Below are positions 23,361 to 34,752 of a stretch of 64,000 nt of DNA, one piece after another. The stretch covers positions 124,001 to 188,000 of the forward strand of contig CALUKE010000001.1 in NCBI GenBank assembly GCA_944321165.1, given 5' to 3'. A program made the position numbers and the translations under genes. The DNA is from an uncultured Odoribacter sp. (lineage in GTDB: Bacteria > Bacteroidota > Bacteroidia > Bacteroidales > Marinifilaceae). The notes below the pieces were generated by a model. The model had not been told where the DNA came from and ran no database searches. It worked only from the letters and a program-made list of their open reading frames with translations. Within the stretch, counting starts at the first letter, position 1. The number at the start of each line of letters is the position of its first letter.

Positions 23361-24467
23361 ATGTTTTCAGAAGAACTTGAAAAATATTCCTGGGAAGAAA
23401 CGACCCGGGAAATCTATTCGAAAACAGTTGCCGATGTCGAACGGGCTTTGGGAAAAAGCCAACCGGACATAGACGACTTCATGGCCCTGGTATCTCCGGC
23501 TGCAGAAAAATACCTGGAACCCATGGCAGCGTTAAGCCGGAAATATACCTTGCAACGGTTTGGGAAAACCATTTCAATGTATATTCCTCTGTACATTACC
23601 AACTCCTGTACCAATTTTTGTGTATACTGCGGATTCAACCACAATAACCCGTTGAAACGGGTCATTTTGACCGAAGAGGAAATCCTGAACGAACTGCATG
23701 CCATTAAAAAACTGGGAAATTTCGAAAATCTGCTGATCGTTACCGGAGAAAATCCCAAAGAGGCAGGAGTCGATTACCTGGAACGGGCCTTGCAACTGGC
23801 TCATCCCCTTTTTGCGAATCTTTCGATTGAGGTGATGCCGTTAAAAGCCGAAGAATATGAGCGGCTTACTCATGCCGGTTTAAATGGTGTTGTCTGTTTT
23901 CAGGAAACTTACAACCGGGATCGGTATACGGTGTACCATCCCAAAGGAATGAAATCGAAATTCGAATGGCGGGTAAACGGTTTCGACCGCATGGGACAAG
24001 CCAACGTCCACAAAATCGGCATGGGGGTTTTGATCGGCTTGGAGGAGTGGCGTACCGACGTCACCATGATGGCCCGGCATTTGCGTTACCTGCAAAAGCA
24101 TTACTGGCAAACCAAATACAGTGTCAATTTTCCCCGCATGCGTCCTTCGGAAGGACATTTCCAACCCAATGTCATTCTTCAGGATCGGGAATTGGCCCAA
24201 CTGATCTTTGCCTTCCGCATTTTCGACCACGACGTGGATATTTCCATTTCAACCCGGGAAGGGGCAGAATTCCGGAATAACATGCTTCCCCTGGGAATTA
24301 CCTCACTGAGTGCCGGTTCGAAAACGGAACCGGGAGGATATTACACCAACCCGCAGGCCCTGGAACAATTTCACATCAGCGACGAACGCTCTCCGAAAGA
24401 GGTTGCGGCCTGTATACGCCAAAGAGGTTACGAACCGGTCTGGAAAGATTGGGATATCTGGATGTAA
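23361..24467 (+). CDS. thiH: 2-iminoacetate synthase
   Basis: A 368-residue radical SAM enzyme that cleaves tyrosine into dehydroglycine and p-cresol for thiazole synthesis. The cluster motif CTNFCVYCGF (CX3CX2C, near residue 85) is intact, followed by EEEILNELHAIKKLG and VTGENPKEAG. The conserved C-terminal region includes SAGSKTEPGGY. Its presence in place of the oxygen-dependent glycine oxidase ThiO fits an anaerobe. It lies 17 bases after thiG. Confidence 0.96.
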   Translation: MFSEELEKYSWEETTREIYSKTVADVERALGKSQPDIDDFMALVSPAAEKYLEPMAALSRKYTLQRFGKTISMYIPLYITNSCTNFCVYCGFNHNNPLKRVILTEEEILNELHAIKKLGNFENLLIVTGENPKEAGVDYLERALQLAHPLFANLSIEVMPLKAEEYERLTHAGLNGVVCFQETYNRDRYTVYHPKGMKSKFEWRVNGFDRMGQANVHKIGMGVLIGLEEWRTDVTMMARHLRYLQKHYWQTKYSVNFPRMRPSEGHFQPNVILQDRELAQLIFAFRIFDHDVDISISTREGAEFRNNMLPLGITSLSAGSKTEPGGYYTNPQALEQFHISDERSPKEVAACIRQRGYEPVWKDWDIWM

Positions 24468-24485
24468 GTAAAGGTTTCAAAGCCC

Positions 24486-25187
24486 ATGACAATGGAAGAA
24501 AAAGAACGCTACGCAAGACATCTGATCCTGGAAGAAGTCGGTGAAAGCGGCCAGGAAAAACTGAGTAAAGCCAAAGTGCTGGTCGTCGGAGCCGGAGGCC
24601 TGGGTGCTCCGATCCTGCTCTATCTGACTGCAGCTGGCATCGGACAAATCGGTATCATGGACGACGACACCGTTTCGGAAAGCAATCTCCAACGGCAAAT
24701 CCTGTATGATACTCCATCCATTGGAGAGCTGAAAACAAAAGTGGCGGTTGCCAGATTGCAGGCATTGAATCCCCATGTCCGCTTCTGCTCCTATCCTTTT
24801 CGCCTCACAACGGAAAGGGCCGATCTAATAGCAGAGTATGATGTAGTCGTCGATGCAACCGACAATCTACCCTCCCGCTATCTGATCGACGAAACCTGCA
24901 TCCGCTATGGAAAGCCTTTTGTTTACGGGAGTATTTGCGAATTCAAAGGACAGGTTTCTGTTTTCAATTACCAGGGAGGTCCTTCTTATCGGGATCTGTA
25001 TGAATACCACGAATCGGTGGCAGAATTTACACAACCCCAAGGAGTAATCGGTGCCCTGCCCGGAGTCGTCGGTTCCATTCAAGCCAGTGAAACCATTAAA
25101 ATCCTGCTTGGATGCAAAAATATCCTTTCGGGAAAACTGCTGCTCATTGATCTGTGGCAAGGAAGTTTTCAGACACTGGTATTTTAA
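24486..25187 (+). CDS. thiF: ThiS adenylyltransferase, cysteine-poor variant
   Basis: A 233-residue E1-like enzyme expected to adenylate the C-terminus of ThiS. The nucleotide-binding VVGAGGLGAPILLYL, DDDTVSESNLQRQILY and DATDNLPSRYLID are intact. Compared with E. coli ThiF as I recall it, the two zinc-binding CxxC pairs are missing (SYRDLY where CxxC is expected, and the protein ends before the second pair), and the cysteine that forms a persulfide/acyl-disulfide is replaced in EFTQPQGVIG. Adenylation should remain; sulfur transfer would need another route. The start could also be Met3. Last gene before the operon terminator. Confidence 0.88.
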   Translation: MTMEEKERYARHLILEEVGESGQEKLSKAKVLVVGAGGLGAPILLYLTAAGIGQIGIMDDDTVSESNLQRQILYDTPSIGELKTKVAVARLQALNPHVRFCSYPFRLTTERADLIAEYDVVVDATDNLPSRYLIDETCIRYGKPFVYGSICEFKGQVSVFNYQGGPSYRDLYEYHESVAEFTQPQGVIGALPGVVGSIQASETIKILLGCKNILSGKLLLIDLWQGSFQTLVF

Positions 25188-28207: not shown

Positions 28208-28270
28208 TCATCCCATGCAACATTTTATCCGTTGTAAACATCTATTACGATATAAAAAAATTGCATAAAT

Positions 28271-28795
28271 ATGGAAGAGACAGTACTGATTCAGGAATGT
28301 CGAAAAGGGAACCGGAAAGCACAAGAAGAATTATACCATCATTTTGCTGCCAAAATGATGGGAATCTGCATTCGCTACTCTCGCGACCGGGAAACGGCCA
28401 ATGATCTGCTGCAGGAAGGTTTCATCAAGGTTTTCATGAATCTGCACACATATAACGGAAACGGCAGTTTTGAAGGATGGGTCCGCAAAATTTTTATTCA
28501 TTGTGCACTGGAAAGAATACGCCAGGAAAAACTTTTCGAGCCGATTAGCGAAAACGAGGAAATTCATCGGGAAACCTCTATCCCCAGTGTGCTGGAAGAA
28601 TTGACCGCCCAGGAAATGGTCAGCCTGATTCGTCAACTACCACCGGGCTACCAGACTATTTTTAATTTGTTTGCCATAGAGGGATTCTCACACAAGGAGA
28701 TCGGACTACTGCTCCACATTACAGAAGGCACCTCCAGATCCCAATATGCAAGAGCACGATATACTTTACAACAGATGATTAAAAACAGATATTAG
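28271..28795 (+). CDS. ECF-type RNA polymerase sigma factor
   Basis: A 174-residue sigma-70 family protein with only regions 2 and 4. Region 2 (about residues 10-85) has DRETANDLLQEGFIKVFMNL and GSFEGWVRKIF; region 4 (about 115-170) has the helix-turn-helix LPPGYQTIFNLFAIEGFSHKEIGLLLHITEGTSRSQ. It would direct RNA polymerase to its own small regulon. It is followed after 2 bases by a membrane-anchored protein that is a likely anti-sigma factor, then by the lipoprotein and radical SAM genes. Confidence 0.93.
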   Translation: MEETVLIQECRKGNRKAQEELYHHFAAKMMGICIRYSRDRETANDLLQEGFIKVFMNLHTYNGNGSFEGWVRKIFIHCALERIRQEKLFEPISENEEIHRETSIPSVLEELTAQEMVSLIRQLPPGYQTIFNLFAIEGFSHKEIGLLLHITEGTSRSQYARARYTLQQMIKNRY

Positions 28796-28797
28796 CC

Positions 28798-29955
28798 ATG
28801 GATACAAGAGATCAATTGGAAACATTGTTCCAAAAACAGTTATATGACTGGGAAGATCAGCCGAATCCCGAAAACTGGGCTTATCTCTCTACTTGTCTGG
28901 ACAAAAAAGAAAAACGGTTATCCTTCTACTCCATCCGACGGATAGCAGCCGTTGCCTGCCTGCTTTTACTGCTCGGCAGCACTCTCCTGTTCGGACCGTT
29001 TTTCCGAAAACCGATACCGGATTCGTACTCCTATTCCCTCCAACCGTTTGCCTGCGATTCCTGTCTGCCGGTCACAGAAATCATACAACTGGCCTCTTCT
29101 CATGTCTCTCTTTCCCTTCCAATGGAAAAAAGGGGACAGGATATGTATCAGGAAACTATAAAAGATACCATTTATTTGATAAAAAATAACTTAAATACAT
29201 ATATTTCAAGTAAAATAACAACACCGGAGCTAAACATACCACCCACTTTGGAAAAACGGTCTCTTCCCTCCCAAACGGCAACACCGGCTACCCGTAAATG
29301 GCGCCTGGGCATGGGAGGCGGAAATTTCAACCTAATCGGCATTCCGACAGGAAACGGAACATATTTGGATCAAACATTCAACGATTTTGCCCCCGATCCG
29401 GGAGAACGACCTGAGACCAAAACCCGGGAAACACAAAGAGATCGATCCTCTTTATTATCGGAATACACGCCGGACAAAGTCAAACACAGTTGTCCCATCT
29501 CTTTCGGAATCGGTGTTTCCCGTCTGTTAACCGAACGCTGGAGCTTCAATACAGGAATTAGCTACAGCTTTCTGAAAAACCGCTGGAAATATGAAAATTC
29601 GAGACACGATGTCGTACAACAAAAATTGCATATGATCGGTATCCCGGTCTCTTTCAGTTACCGCTTGACCAACTGGGAAAAATTGTCCTGCTACTGGTCG
29701 GTCGGTCTCACCTGCGAATTCAACCTTCACAGCAAATGGATCACAGCCGATCAGATTCAACGGGAACGCATACGGGGAGCCCTTTGGCTGGCGAATACAC
29801 ATATCGGCATGGCATATCCCATTATTCGTTATGTTTCAGTCTATACAGAAGGTGGATTCCTGTGGAATTTGACAACGGATAGCAGAATACGTCAGGTTCG
29901 ATCGGAAGATTTTTTCAATATCACCGGTCAAATCGGATTTCGATTGAACTTCTAA
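28798..29955 (+). CDS. membrane-anchored barrel-like protein, candidate anti-sigma factor
   Basis: A 385-residue protein that I do not recognise as a single known family. Residues 1-45 are soluble and charged (DQLETLFQKQLYDWED, PENWAYL), residues 48-69 form one membrane helix, 70-160 a polar Thr/Pro-rich linker, and 165-385 a beta-rich region with alternating aromatic strands (FGIGVSRLL, WSFNTGISYSFL, GIPVSFSYRL, ITGQIGFRLNF) resembling an outer-membrane beta-barrel of the PorT/OmpW kind. The terminal Phe is typical of barrel proteins. The start overlaps almost directly with the sigma-factor stop. The cytoplasmic N-terminus could hold the sigma factor, but no standard anti-sigma motif is visible. 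Confidence 0.65.
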   Translation: MDTRDQLETLFQKQLYDWEDQPNPENWAYLSTCLDKKEKRLSFYSIRRIAAVACLLLLLGSTLLFGPFFRKPIPDSYSYSLQPFACDSCLPVTEIIQLASSHVSLSLPMEKRGQDMYQETIKDTIYLIKNNLNTYISSKITTPELNIPPTLEKRSLPSQTATPATRKWRLGMGGGNFNLIGIPTGNGTYLDQTFNDFAPDPGERPETKTRETQRDRSSLLSEYTPDKVKHSCPISFGIGVSRLLTERWSFNTGISYSFLKNRWKYENSRHDVVQQKLHMIGIPVSFSYRLTNWEKLSCYWSVGLTCEFNLHSKWITADQIQRERIRGALWLANTHIGMAYPIIRYVSVYTEGGFLWNLTTDSRIRQVRSEDFFNITGQIGFRLNF

Positions 29956-30061
29956 AAACAACGAATCAATATATCATTTCCTCTGTTCGTTCTCTGATCC
30001 GGACAGCAGAACAAACGGAGGATAAACTTTCAAATCAATTTTAATATTAAAAACCAAACAC

Positions 30062-30565
30062 ATGAAAATTTTACACGGAATACTTGCCACTTTATTAGGA
30101 CTCCTGGGCTTTTCTTCCTGCCTAAAGGAAGATCCGGACAATCCGATCATCTGCATGTACGGTACACCGACAGCCCATTATGTCATCAAAGGGAAAGTCG
30201 TCAATCCACAGGGAAAAGGCGTTTCCCGCGTTCAAGTCATTGTCAGCGAACAGGAATTTGCCTATGCCCCCCGTCCCGGAGTCATCTTGGACGAACCTCG
30301 GGGCATCCGACCGGTTCACGATACATTGTACACGGACGAACAAGGGAAATTCGAAACTTGGCAAACCTACTTTCCAATTGACACTATTCGCTACCGGTTA
30401 AAAATCAACGAAGACGGCTGCCATCCGCTCTATGAGTCCGATTCGCTGAAAGTTACCTTTTTGAAACAGGATCTGAGTAAAGGAGATGGTGTATGGAATC
30501 TGGGAAAAAACATCCAGGAAGTAAAAATTACCCTTCAACCTAAAAAAGAAGATTCTCATGAATAA
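30062..30565 (+). CDS. radical SAM-associated putative lipoprotein
   Basis: A 167-residue exported protein. The signal peptide ends in GFSSC with lipidated Cys20. A conserved-looking CMYGTPTAHY (Cys31) follows, then a beta-sandwich resembling a carboxypeptidase-regulatory domain (VIKGKVVNPQGKGVSRVQVIV; TDEQGKFET), and a late GCHPLY (Cys120). Its 3' end overlaps the radical SAM gene by 8 bases (CATGAATAA), so the two are translationally coupled. I recall NCBIfam families TIGR04134 (lipoprotein) and TIGR04133 (radical SAM partner) describing exactly this pairing in Bacteroidales; I could not check this. The lipoprotein may be the substrate of the enzyme. Function unknown. Confidence 0.82.
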   Translation: MKILHGILATLLGLLGFSSCLKEDPDNPIICMYGTPTAHYVIKGKVVNPQGKGVSRVQVIVSEQEFAYAPRPGVILDEPRGIRPVHDTLYTDEQGKFETWQTYFPIDTIRYRLKINEDGCHPLYESDSLKVTFLKQDLSKGDGVWNLGKNIQEVKITLQPKKEDSHE

Positions 30566-31643
30566 GCGAATCAGCCTTCGCAAACGCCTGGGACTCGAAC
30601 TTTTTCACCAGCAGGAACTGTTAGTCCGTCAAAAACACGAACTGCGTACTCTGTTTTGGGAATGCACGCTGCGCTGCAATGTCGCCTGTCGGCATTGCGG
30701 CAGCGATTGCCGAGTCGCCTGCCACCAACCGGACATGCCACAGGCCAATTTTCTCCAGGCCTTGGACAAAATCACCCCACAGGTGGATCCTCACCGGGTC
30801 TTTATCATTTTCACCGGAGGAGAGCCACTGATGCGAAAAGATTTGGAACAGTGCGGACTGGCCTGCTATCAGCGGGGATATCCCTGGGGAATTGTCACCA
30901 ACGGTCTGCTACTCTCCCGTTCCAGGTTGGATGCCCTGTTACAGTCCGGCATGCACAGCATTACCGTCAGCCTGGACGGTCTGGAAGAAACTCACAACTG
31001 GCTGCGTAGGCATCCGCAGAGCTTTCGACGGGCCAGCGAGGCAGTCCGCATGCTCAGCCAGGAAAAAGAGCTTGTATGGGATGTCGTCAGCTGCATCCAC
31101 CAACGCAATCTGAAAGAACTGCCGGCCTTCCGGGATTACCTCATCCAATCCGGCGTCCAACGGTGGCGACTGTTTACCATTTTTCCGGTGGGACGAGCCA
31201 AACAGACCCCGGAACTCCAACTCACCCCGGCACAATTTACCGAATTGCTGGATTTCATCCGACAGACCCGTACCGACGGACAACTTCACACCAATTTTGC
31301 CTGTGAAGGTTTCTTAGGTCCCTATGAAACAGAAGTGCGCGATTATTTTTTCCGCTGCCATGCCGGCATATCGGTCGGATCCATTCGCATCAACGGAGCC
31401 ATATCCGGTTGTCCCAGCATCCGATCCAATTACGACCAGGGAAATATCTACCAGGATGATTTCATGGAAGTCTGGAACCATCGTTTCGAAGTATTTCGTC
31501 ACCGGGAATGGGCTCGCCAGGGAATCTGTGCCGACTGTTCCATGTTCCGGTATTGCGAAGGAAATGGCATGCATCTGCACGACGAAAACGGTCGGCTGAT
31601 GACTTGTCACTACCATCGGTTACAAAGTAACATCGACCCATGA
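30558..31643 (+). CDS. radical SAM/SPASM enzyme of the lipoprotein system
   Basis: A 361-residue radical SAM protein. The cluster motif is C40-x3-C44-x2-C47 (ECTLRCNVACRHC), followed by IFTGGEPLMRKDL and SLDGLEETHNWLR. The C-terminal SPASM region supplies further cysteines in FRCHAGISVGSIRINGAISGCPSI, GICADCSMFRYCEG and MTCHYH, enough for auxiliary iron-sulfur clusters. SPASM enzymes usually modify peptides or proteins. It starts inside the end of the lipoprotein gene. Substrate and product are unknown; modification of the lipoprotein before export is the simplest hypothesis, but a separate small substrate cannot be excluded. Confidence 0.9.
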   Translation: MNKRISLRKRLGLELFHQQELLVRQKHELRTLFWECTLRCNVACRHCGSDCRVACHQPDMPQANFLQALDKITPQVDPHRVFIIFTGGEPLMRKDLEQCGLACYQRGYPWGIVTNGLLLSRSRLDALLQSGMHSITVSLDGLEETHNWLRRHPQSFRRASEAVRMLSQEKELVWDVVSCIHQRNLKELPAFRDYLIQSGVQRWRLFTIFPVGRAKQTPELQLTPAQFTELLDFIRQTRTDGQLHTNFACEGFLGPYETEVRDYFFRCHAGISVGSIRINGAISGCPSIRSNYDQGNIYQDDFMEVWNHRFEVFRHREWARQGICADCSMFRYCEGNGMHLHDENGRLMTCHYHRLQSNIDP

Positions 31644-32103: not shown

Positions 32104-34752
32104 ATGGAAACAAAACACTACTCTGGTTTAAACGATTCTGAAGTGGAGAAAAACCGTAAAAAATTCGGTCCAAACGTCATTACGCCTCCACCACGTACTC
32201 CCTTATGGAAACTATTTCTTGAAAAATTCAAAGACCCCATCATACGCATTCTACTAGTTGCTGCCGCACTATCCCTGATCATTTCCATCATACACAATGA
32301 ATATGCAGAAACCATCGGTATTTTTGCCGCCATATTTCTGGCAACAGGTGTGGGATTCTGGTTTGAAATGGATGCCAACAAAAAATTTGAACTCTTGAAT
32401 CAGGTCAATGATGACATACTGATCAAGGTATTTCGCAATGGCAATATCCATGAAATTCCGAAACGGGACATTGTCGTGGGAGACATTGTAATACTTGAAA
32501 CCGGAGAAGAAGTTCCTGCCGATGGAGAATTGCTTGAAGCCATCTCTCTCCAGGTAAATGAATCGACTCTTACCGGCGAACCCGTCATCGACAAAACAAC
32601 CGACCCGGCCGATTTCGACACGGAAGCCACCTATCCTTCCAACAAAATCATGCGGGGGACCACCATCGTCAACGGACATTGCATTTATCAAGTCGAGAAA
32701 GTCGGCGACGCAACGGAATTCGGCAAAGTAGCCCAAAAATCAACAGAAATCAATCAGGATAAAACTCCCCTCAGCAAACAACTGGAAGGTTTGGCCCAAT
32801 TCATCAGTATTGTCGGTTTTATTGTTGCAGGAGTTACTTTTCTTGGTCTTCTACTGAAAGATATTCTGGCAGGAGTCTTCACATCAGAAAATCTTCTGAC
32901 GTTGGAAACAGCCGGAAGAATCTTAAATTATTTCATGGTATCCGTTACCCTGATCGTCGTTTCCGTACCGGAAGGTCTCCCCATGAGCGTCACCTTAAGT
33001 CTTGCATTGAGCATGCGCAAAATGTTGCGTACGAATAATCTGGTCCGCAAGATGCATGCCTGCGAAACCATGGGGGCTACGACGGTTATTTGTACAGACA
33101 AGACCGGGACTTTAACCCAGAATCAGATGCAGGTACATCAAACCCGTTTTTATGCCCTGCCAGATCAACAATTACAAACCGAAGCTCCGATCGGCACTCT
33201 GATAAAAGAAGGTATCTCAGTCAATTCGACTGCTTACCTGGAATACGGTCCGGAAGGACAGGTGAAAACCCTGGGCAATCCGACCGAAGCCGCTCTTCTG
33301 CTCTGGCTGCATCGACAAAAGGTCGATTACCTGGACTATCGCAATCATACCGAAATCATACGGCAATTGACCTTCTCTACCGAACGGAAATACATGGCCA
33401 CGTTGGTCCGTTCGAACTGGGAGGGTAAAATCATTCTCTACCTGAAAGGGGCTCCGGAGATCGTATTTTCCAAATGCCGGCAGGTGGAAACATTAGAAGG
33501 ACTCCAACCGGCCACAGCCTACCGTTCCATCATAGAGGAAGAATTGCTGAACTTTCAGAATCAGGCCATGCGAACCTTAGGATTTGCCTACAAGATACTG
33601 GATGAAATACCAAAAGAAGAAATCACCGCCATTGCCAACGAAGGGATGACCTTTTTAGGCATTGCCGCCATTTCGGATCCGGTACGTTCCGATGTGCCGG
33701 CAGCCGTAAGCAAGTGCCTGAATGCCGGAATCGACGTAAAAATCGTGACAGGAGATACGCCGGCAACAGCCCGCGAAATCGGTCGACAAATAGGTATCTG
33801 GAAATCCGGCGATACGGAAGAACAACTCATTACCGGTACAGATTTTGAAAAACTCTCGGACGAAGAAGCGGCCCAGCGGGTATTAAAACTCAAAATCATG
33901 TGTCGAGCCCGTCCTACCGATAAACAACGGCTGGTCGAACTGCTGAAACGGGCGGGCGCTGTCGTTGCCGTCACAGGCGACGGGACCAATGATGCTCCGG
34001 CCCTGAATCATGCCGACGTCGGCCTTTCCATGGGATCGGGTACTTCCGTTGCCAAGGAAGCCAGCGACATCACCCTCTTGGACGATTCTTTCAACAGCAT
34101 CGCCACGGCTGTCATGTGGGGACGCTCTCTCTATCACAACATACAGCGTTTCATCTTATTCCAGTTGACCATCAACTTGTCGGCCCTGCTGATTGTATTG
34201 ATCGGATCCATGTTTGGCAAAGAACTTCCGCTGACAGTTACCCAAATGTTATGGGTGAACATGATCATCGATACTTTTGCTGCAGCGGCCCTGGCGTCTC
34301 TTCCACCCAGCCCCAAAGTAATGGAAGAGAAACCGCGTAAAACGACCGATTTCATCATTACTCCGAAAATGAAGAATTATATTTTGGGAATCGGTCTCTC
34401 TTTCACAGTTCTGCTATTGGGTCTGATGTACTGGTTCAGCAGCAATGACGGTTCCATCTCCCCCCGTGAATTGTCCATCTTTTTCACCACTTTTGTAATG
34501 TTACAATTTTGGAATATGTTCAATGCCAAAGCGTTCCTGTCACACGGTTCCGCTTTCAAGAATCTGAAAAAAAGCACCGGTTTCTTGATAGTCATGGCCA
34601 TCATTCCAATTGGACAATACCTGATCGTACAATTCGGCGGAGAAGTTTTCCGTACCGTTCCCTTAAGTTGGCAAGACTGGGGAATCATCGTGGGGAGCAC
34701 TTCCTGCGTATTGTGGATAGGCGAGTTGCTCCGACTGTTAAAAAAGGAATAG
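32104..34752 (+). CDS. calcium-type P-type ATPase (P2 family)
   Basis: An 882-residue inner-membrane cation pump. Order: an N-terminal cytosolic segment beginning YSGLNDSEVEKNRKKFG, membrane helices, an actuator domain with LTGEP, helix 4 with SVPEGLPM (the ion-binding PEGLP pattern of P2 calcium pumps), the phosphorylation motif DKTGTLTQNQ with Asp332, an N-domain, the hinge VTGDGTNDAPALNHADVG, and C-terminal helices. The closest type is the PMCA-like bacterial calcium pump, with no long C-terminal calmodulin tail. It would expel calcium or a similar divalent ion. No regulator is adjacent. Confidence 0.9.
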   Translation: METKHYSGLNDSEVEKNRKKFGPNVITPPPRTPLWKLFLEKFKDPIIRILLVAAALSLIISIIHNEYAETIGIFAAIFLATGVGFWFEMDANKKFELLNQVNDDILIKVFRNGNIHEIPKRDIVVGDIVILETGEEVPADGELLEAISLQVNESTLTGEPVIDKTTDPADFDTEATYPSNKIMRGTTIVNGHCIYQVEKVGDATEFGKVAQKSTEINQDKTPLSKQLEGLAQFISIVGFIVAGVTFLGLLLKDILAGVFTSENLLTLETAGRILNYFMVSVTLIVVSVPEGLPMSVTLSLALSMRKMLRTNNLVRKMHACETMGATTVICTDKTGTLTQNQMQVHQTRFYALPDQQLQTEAPIGTLIKEGISVNSTAYLEYGPEGQVKTLGNPTEAALLLWLHRQKVDYLDYRNHTEIIRQLTFSTERKYMATLVRSNWEGKIILYLKGAPEIVFSKCRQVETLEGLQPATAYRSIIEEELLNFQNQAMRTLGFAYKILDEIPKEEITAIANEGMTFLGIAAISDPVRSDVPAAVSKCLNAGIDVKIVTGDTPATAREIGRQIGIWKSGDTEEQLITGTDFEKLSDEEAAQRVLKLKIMCRARPTDKQRLVELLKRAGAVVAVTGDGTNDAPALNHADVGLSMGSGTSVAKEASDITLLDDSFNSIATAVMWGRSLYHNIQRFILFQLTINLSALLIVLIGSMFGKELPLTVTQMLWVNMIIDTFAAAALASLPPSPKVMEEKPRKTTDFIITPKMKNYILGIGLSFTVLLLGLMYWFSSNDGSISPRELSIFFTTFVMLQFWNMFNAKAFLSHGSAFKNLKKSTGFLIVMAIIPIGQYLIVQFGGEVFRTVPLSWQDWGIIVGSTSCVLWIGELLRLLKKE

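Follow-up and report, generated by a model that had tools for sequence, protein, structure and literature searches.

A conserved YGxP motif as the probable target of a Bacteroidales radical SAM enzyme: a candidate splicease acting on lipoproteins

Introduction

PlpX is a radical S-adenosylmethionine (SAM)/SPASM enzyme that cuts a tyramine equivalent from an X-Tyr-Gly site and reseals the chain, leaving an alpha-ketoamide (PMC11002830). The PlpXY pair is active on MYG and LYG, and works leaderless on ten-residue tags such as PLYGLPI within unrelated proteins (PMC10533398), and the spliceotide products inhibit proteases (PMC11117315). Here we describe a lipoprotein and a radical SAM/SPASM enzyme encoded side by side in a 64,000-nucleotide stretch from an uncultured Odoribacter sp. 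(contig CALUKE010000001.1, positions 124,001 to 188,000; this whole stretch is called the window), downstream of genes for an extracytoplasmic function (ECF) sigma factor and a membrane barrel protein. We find that a YGxP motif in the lipoprotein is well supported as the probable target of the enzyme, and we propose that the enzyme may be of the splicease type.

The two proteins belong to the NCBIfam families TIGR04133 (enzyme) and TIGR04134 (lipoprotein), whose descriptions name no function. MftC and PqqE are SPASM enzymes that act on a Tyr of a partner peptide; dedicated chaperone genes adjoin these enzymes, and we know of no YG target motif for either. In the GDL-motif/DUF1843 system (TIGR03913), the substrates are small soluble peptides, not lipoproteins. 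In the literature that we searched, which did not include the survey of Scott et al. (2022), no paper was found naming TIGR04133 or the product name of TIGR04134.

Results

The YGxP motif of the partner lipoproteins

The enzyme-lipoprotein pair is encoded by two overlapping genes, in which we observe the following features:

30062-30565, + strand: lipoprotein, 167 residues, TIGR04134
30119-30133, + strand: lipidated Cys20, invariant, followed by L-K-E-D, a match to a surface export signal as read from the sequence
30155-30169, + strand: M32-Y33-G34-T35-P36, the xYGxP motif, proposed as the modification site from its conservation
30558-31643, + strand: radical SAM/SPASM enzyme, 361 residues, TIGR04133
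30675-30698, + strand: CNVACRHC, the radical SAM [4Fe-4S] motif (C40, C44, C47), invariant in 46 family members
31356-31607, + strand: SPASM cysteines C267, C285, C324, C327, C333 and C350

Both families had been named correctly in the initial annotation: the enzyme scores 577.5 bits against TIGR04133 (cut-off 425) and the lipoprotein, with a TIGR04133 gene adjoining, 100.4 bits against TIGR04134 (cut-off 39.8). The source genome holds a single copy of the enzyme and a single lipoprotein above cut-off, and a second copy of either was not found at that threshold.

In a comparison set of 60 related loci and the window (61 loci), what stays constant is the pair of lipoprotein and enzyme. When 23 divergent lipoproteins are compared, five residues alone are invariant, namely the lipidated C20, Y33, G34, P36 and G95, and in the six closest lipoproteins M32, Y33, G34 and P36 are all conserved. 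An AlphaFold2 model of the lipoprotein (predicted local distance difference test, pLDDT, 86) has a beta-sandwich from residue 37, with the YG in a short linker that runs from the signal helix and lipid anchor to the first strand of the sandwich. A fold search of the lipoprotein gave weak intradiol-dioxygenase-like and prealbumin-like beta-sandwich matches alone, which indicate no function.

A strict pattern picked out a lipobox open reading frame (ORF) with YGxP in 49 of the 61 loci, and inspection by eye added three more (L073, L075, L088); the loci lacking a match include several truncated by contig ends, and L078, L079 and L095 have YG without the Pro. Some loci have lipoproteins of unrelated architecture, coiled-coil or disordered, beside the enzyme, and all of these contain YG, in nearly every case as YGxP. 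Coiled-coil lipoproteins occur in four loci (L058, L062, L069, L072), and short Ser/Asp/Lys-rich tethers (L065, L070, L074, L075) carry the motif near the C terminus. Two YGxP copies each are found in L062, L069 and L072, three YG sites in L074 (two of them YGxP), and several YG lipoproteins stand in tandem within a single operon in L065. The residue before the Tyr is commonly Cys, Glu or Lys. The partner lipoproteins carry the X-Tyr-Gly site that characterizes the substrates of PlpX spliceases. We regard the YGxP as well supported as the likely target motif on these alignments, and consider it highly probable that the enzyme acts at the YG, with the exported lipoprotein as its likely substrate, as the initial annotation had suggested. 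We also note in L050, 1.1 kb past the start of the radical SAM gene, a candidate non-lipoprotein ORF with YGGPP, YGGP and YGPP, which an opposite-strand ORF overlaps.

The sequence after the lipidated cysteine bears on the location of the product. K-(D/E)2 after the lipidated Cys is a surface export signal described in Capnocytophaga (PMC5080379), and C20-L-K-E-D of the window lipoprotein agrees with this consensus, suggesting that the lipoprotein may be surface-exposed and that the modified product may face outward.

Relatives of the enzyme and their xYG peptides

The AlphaFold2 model of the enzyme (pLDDT 94) finds its best PDB folds in SkfB (top), SuiB, BlsE and PqqE. Searching plasmids with the enzyme by tblastn yielded, beyond TIGR04133, a Nostoc nif11-class maturase 3 (TIGR04103), GDL-motif maturases and an Agathobacter radical SAM enzyme. 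In a maximum-likelihood tree the TIGR04133 family groups with TIGR04103, GDL/DUF1843 and Agathobacter-type enzymes, and a 98/96 branch separates this group from PqqE, MftC, NirJ, TIGR04053 and others; a grouping with MftC is rejected (approximately unbiased test, p-AU 0.016). PlpX carries the entry IPR026482, which we take to be the InterPro entry of TIGR04103. Against TIGR04103 the window enzyme scores 111.3 bits (cut-off 725), which places it outside that family by its present definition.

The relatives on this branch are encoded beside peptides with xYG. A Nostoc TIGR04103 operon encodes a Nif11 precursor ending GGRGSIALYGLPPELF (the core), the radical SAM enzyme and a 71-residue partner, and cores in 80 further cyanobacterial loci include PLYGLPP, LMYGLPP and QPMYGVVI; natural PlpX-type cores, ALYGLPP, resemble the MYGTP of the window lipoprotein. 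Most of the DUF1843 (GDL) peptides that we saw contain xYG, and the GDL enzyme is 48% identical to the Nostoc TIGR04103 enzyme, suggesting that GDL peptides may also be spliceotides. In two Bacteroidota loci (L113, L206) DUF1843 peptides with xYG accompany a GDL-type radical SAM enzyme and a class I methyltransferase. On an Agathobacter rectalis plasmid (L112, approximately 2812-2915, + strand) an unannotated 35-residue ORF ending LFGPVMYGTGVRM, with the C-terminal VMYGTGVRM, lies immediately 5′ of the radical SAM gene. Finally, a Bacteroidales ORF with six KYGYPC repeats (L210:3351-3599, + strand) is located 3′ of an Agathobacter-type enzyme and is a candidate multi-core precursor of a ribosomally synthesized and post-translationally modified peptide (RiPP).

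The four-gene unit and its distribution

Two further genes precede the pair in the window:

28271-28795, + strand: ECF sigma factor, 174 residues, with Sigma70_r2 and Sigma70_r4_2 above Pfam cut-offs; TIGR02937
28798-29955, + strand: candidate anti-sigma/barrel protein, OMP_b-brl_2, its role proposed

The four ORFs, the 2-base gap between sigma factor and barrel genes and the 8-base overlap of the lipoprotein and radical SAM genes (30558-30565) are as first annotated. The sigma factor scores 80.8 bits against TIGR02937 in a profile search (cut-off 42.9) and has sigma-70 regions 2 and 4 only, as ECF sigma factors do. The barrel protein scores 25.9 bits against OMP_b-brl_2, slightly below the cut-off of 27, and its L046 ortholog 27.4 bits, slightly above; its predicted topology is a short N-terminal cytoplasmic part, one transmembrane helix (about 28942-29004) and a C-terminal OMP_b-brl_2 domain (about 29476-29955). 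Its linkage and topology point to a possible anti-sigma role.

We found the sigma factor and barrel genes beside the pair in 5 of the 61 loci (the window, L041, L042, L046 and L049), which belong to two genera of one family; sigma orthologs in the four sister units are 62-73% identical and barrel orthologs 32-49%. Since the layout recurs in four more genomes, the arrangement is not due to chance, in keeping with the single locus first described, although the gap between the barrel and lipoprotein genes is wider than had been implied (106 nt in the window and about 110 nt in L046, compared to 10-17 nt in L041, L042 and L049). In the two carrier genera, each of the five genomes that have the pair also has the barrel ortholog, whereas the nine that lack the pair lack the ortholog too. 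This full co-presence, together with the 5 of 61 loci overall, shows that the four genes form one unit within this lineage and that the lineage-specific module of sigma factor and barrel has been added locally to a more widespread pair. The same count rules out the sigma factor and barrel as a component of a general system: unlinked sigma and barrel genes, which the initial annotation had named as grounds for doubting its proposal, are indeed the rule at the level of the order, but not within the two carrier genera.

The enzyme family itself is more broadly distributed, with TIGR04133 in about a fifth of the genomes sampled from the order (45 of 198) and in 11 of 59 from the family. A TIGR04134/TIGR04133 pair is also present on a Treponema saccharophilum plasmid (L110:4568-6044), beside a Mpi-type serine recombinase, and this copy suggests that the pair has been transferred outside Bacteroidota. 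The window unit is flanked by ordinary neighbours, as judged from their sequences: a ThiH-like radical SAM gene with a ThiF/MoeB-like gene, and a cation P-type ATPase (23361-25187, 32104-34752).

An ECF-type promoter element

A conserved element precedes the sigma factor gene:

28216-28243, + strand: ECF-type promoter element TGCAAC-ATTT-...-CATCT, with 27 nt between the element and the sigma start codon

The pattern TGCAAC-x-TTT...CATCT is common to all five sigma genes of the four-gene units, approximately 50-58 nt before the start codon. The strict element matches once in the window, compared to 0 in 100 shuffles, and nowhere else in the 3.4-Mb genome (reversed control 0). With a relaxed pattern, the element was also found 5′ of 10 of the 71 partner lipoprotein ORFs in loci without an adjoining sigma gene, nine of them at -43 to -55 and one (L055) at -94. 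Among 387 other genes used as controls, the matches were the five sigma genes and three orthologous within-coding matches, leaving 0 of the remaining 379; even with those eight counted against it, the lipoprotein enrichment has a Fisher p of 7e-5, which is optimistic because the relaxed pattern was chosen after the sites were seen. Four of the ten element-bearing loci come from one genus, so that there are about seven independent cases. At L055:5376-5403, in a different family and with a sigma gene absent from the vicinity, an exact match to the strict element precedes a YGTP lipoprotein.

Related genomes also have this element class 5′ of further ECF genes and of genes for secreted proteins (16 sites, against 2 in the reversed control), suggesting a general ECF promoter type that is repeatedly used by the pair. 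ECF-type control of the lipoprotein-enzyme pair thus appears better supported than by gene linkage alone. The ECF switch proposed at the outset is supported in the form of an ECF-like promoter that also precedes the pair in loci where no sigma gene adjoins, but its coupling to the adjacent sigma factor and barrel is confined to the few loci that carry them. A scan for sigma-70 promoters gave no signal above shuffles, terminator-like sites numbered 11 versus 4.9 in shuffles but are positioned within genes, and a hairpin 3′ of the radical SAM gene was not significant (z -0.78).

Discussion

The probable kinship of the enzyme and the nature of its target motif lead us to propose the same reaction as that of PlpX on Met32-Tyr33-Gly34, within an operon that responds to a stimulus and modifies a lipoprotein. 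In this reading the ECF sigma factor, probably restrained by the membrane barrel protein, would transcribe the operon from its own promoter, an autoregulation to which the conserved element points. The cytoplasmic radical SAM/SPASM enzyme would act on the unfolded prelipoprotein at M32-Y33-G34 before export, removing a tyramine equivalent from Tyr33 and joining Met32 to the residual Tyr carbonyl to yield an alpha-keto-beta-amino amide, with a predicted mass change of -135.0757 Da per site. Sec export, lipidation at Cys20 and a flip to the surface guided by the K-E-D signal would follow, so that a reversible electrophile would be displayed between the lipid anchor and the beta-sandwich, plausibly as a protease-trapping or inhibitory group; both the surface location and the inhibitor role are presumed. 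Our best explanation, held at about even confidence, is an enzyme of the splicease type that equips exported lipoproteins with a ketoamide, with neither a RiPP leader nor a RiPP recognition element (RRE) partner, and for tyramine excision as the chemistry we see the chances as balanced.

The candidate system is similar to PlpXY in having a radical SAM/SPASM enzyme that probably shares its branch, an X-Tyr-Gly target in which Pro commonly occupies +3 (LYGLPP versus MYGTP) and a substrate from a small partner gene. Unlike PlpXY, it has exported lipoprotein substrates, no Nif11/NHLP leader and no adjacent RRE partner; one SPASM Cys is missing and C249 and C51 are added, the -1 residue is commonly Cys, Glu or Lys, and the activity is predicted. 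In the tree, the GDL enzymes lie on a common branch with TIGR04133, whereas MftC and PqqE fall on the opposite side of the 98/96 branch.

Several observations weigh against a splicease. The SPASM CX3C ligand of PlpX-like proteins is absent from the TIGR04133 family; C249 and C51, which are invariant in the family, may stand in for it. The family sits on a long stem (1.94) in a tree that included no true AhbD or NirJ2 row, and a forced grouping with NirJ/TIGR04053 is 26 log-likelihood units lower but not firmly rejected (p-AU 0.061). Hidden Markov model scores do not prefer TIGR04103 over TIGR04053, AhbD or NirJ2, several families being tied, and ranking families by such scores to name the nearest known enzyme was abandoned as uninformative. 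No PlpY-like RRE partner and no conserved third gene was found beside the enzyme in the 61 loci, and PlpX-type cores prefer Leu or Met before the Tyr, whereas Cys, Glu and Lys are common here.

Different chemistry at the same motif must also be considered. The YGxP tyrosine could be crosslinked to a neighbour through a C-C or ether bond, or undergo an MftC-like oxidative decarboxylation; conservation of YGxP fits any Tyr-directed chemistry, the near PDB folds include the C-C link formers SuiB and PqqE as well as BlsE, and the SPASM cysteines are altered. However, the invariant Gly suits XYG splicing better than a Tyr-X crosslink, the Pro at +3 is the sole other invariant residue that could serve as crosslink partner, and the MftC clade is rejected in the tree (p-AU 0.016), such that we consider these chemistries unlikely, while keeping them in serious view. 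Modification of a cysteine, for example as a thioether at Cys31 or Cys120 as the initial annotation had it, seems to us extremely improbable. It could draw on the thioether-forming maturase SkfB being the top fold match, on the position of Cys31 two residues before Tyr33, and on a Cys at -2 in 10 and at -1 in 19 of the 65 motif sites. Both named cysteines exist, but neither is conserved, and the alignment rules them out as modification sites: Cys31 is lacking in each of the two L042 paralogues and Cys120 varies, in contrast to the invariant Y33-G34-x-P36. The short lipoproteins have the lipidated Cys as their sole Cys near the YG, Glu or Lys stands before many of the motifs, and the conserved acceptor cysteines of sactipeptide and ranthipeptide substrates are absent.

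The motif could instead be a recognition or sorting tag, in which case the enzyme would work on a different substrate or at another position of the lipoprotein. Conservation alone does not separate a target site from a tag, but multiple YGxP motifs per lipoprotein and tandem genes fit a target site better, as do the genuine RiPP precursors of related enzymes, whose core is xYG, making a tag rather unlikely in our view. Whether the sigma factor and barrel belong to the system can be questioned as well, as they are absent from 56 of the 61 pair loci and their type of promoter is found 5′ of further ECF genes and of genes for secreted proteins too. That they are a signalling module of their own, placed upstream by happenstance, is nevertheless quite improbable given the exact co-presence in two genera (5/5 versus 0/9), the 10-17 nt to the lipoprotein in three of the five units, and the element directly before the lipoprotein where the sigma gene does not adjoin.

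The present analysis brought out the probable YGxP target, the multi-lipoprotein forms and the link to an ECF promoter; a splicease-like system of this kind would be set apart by acting on lipoproteins, by dispensing with both the RiPP leader and the RRE partner, and by its ECF control. For an enzyme-lipoprotein pair that was annotated but unexplained, this gives a defined target site together with an expected change in mass. More tentatively, and with the balance tilted slightly against it, we suggest that Bacteroidales and, by transfer, a Treponema plasmid encode a widespread family of lipid-anchored proteins under ECF control, in which a leader-independent radical SAM splicease remodels the backbone so that alpha-ketoamides are displayed in the envelope. 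If this is true, backbone splicing would occur in cell-envelope lipoproteins besides secreted peptides, the pair would be a source of leader-free spliceases for protein engineering, and gut bacteria would display a protease-reactive group under stress-type control.

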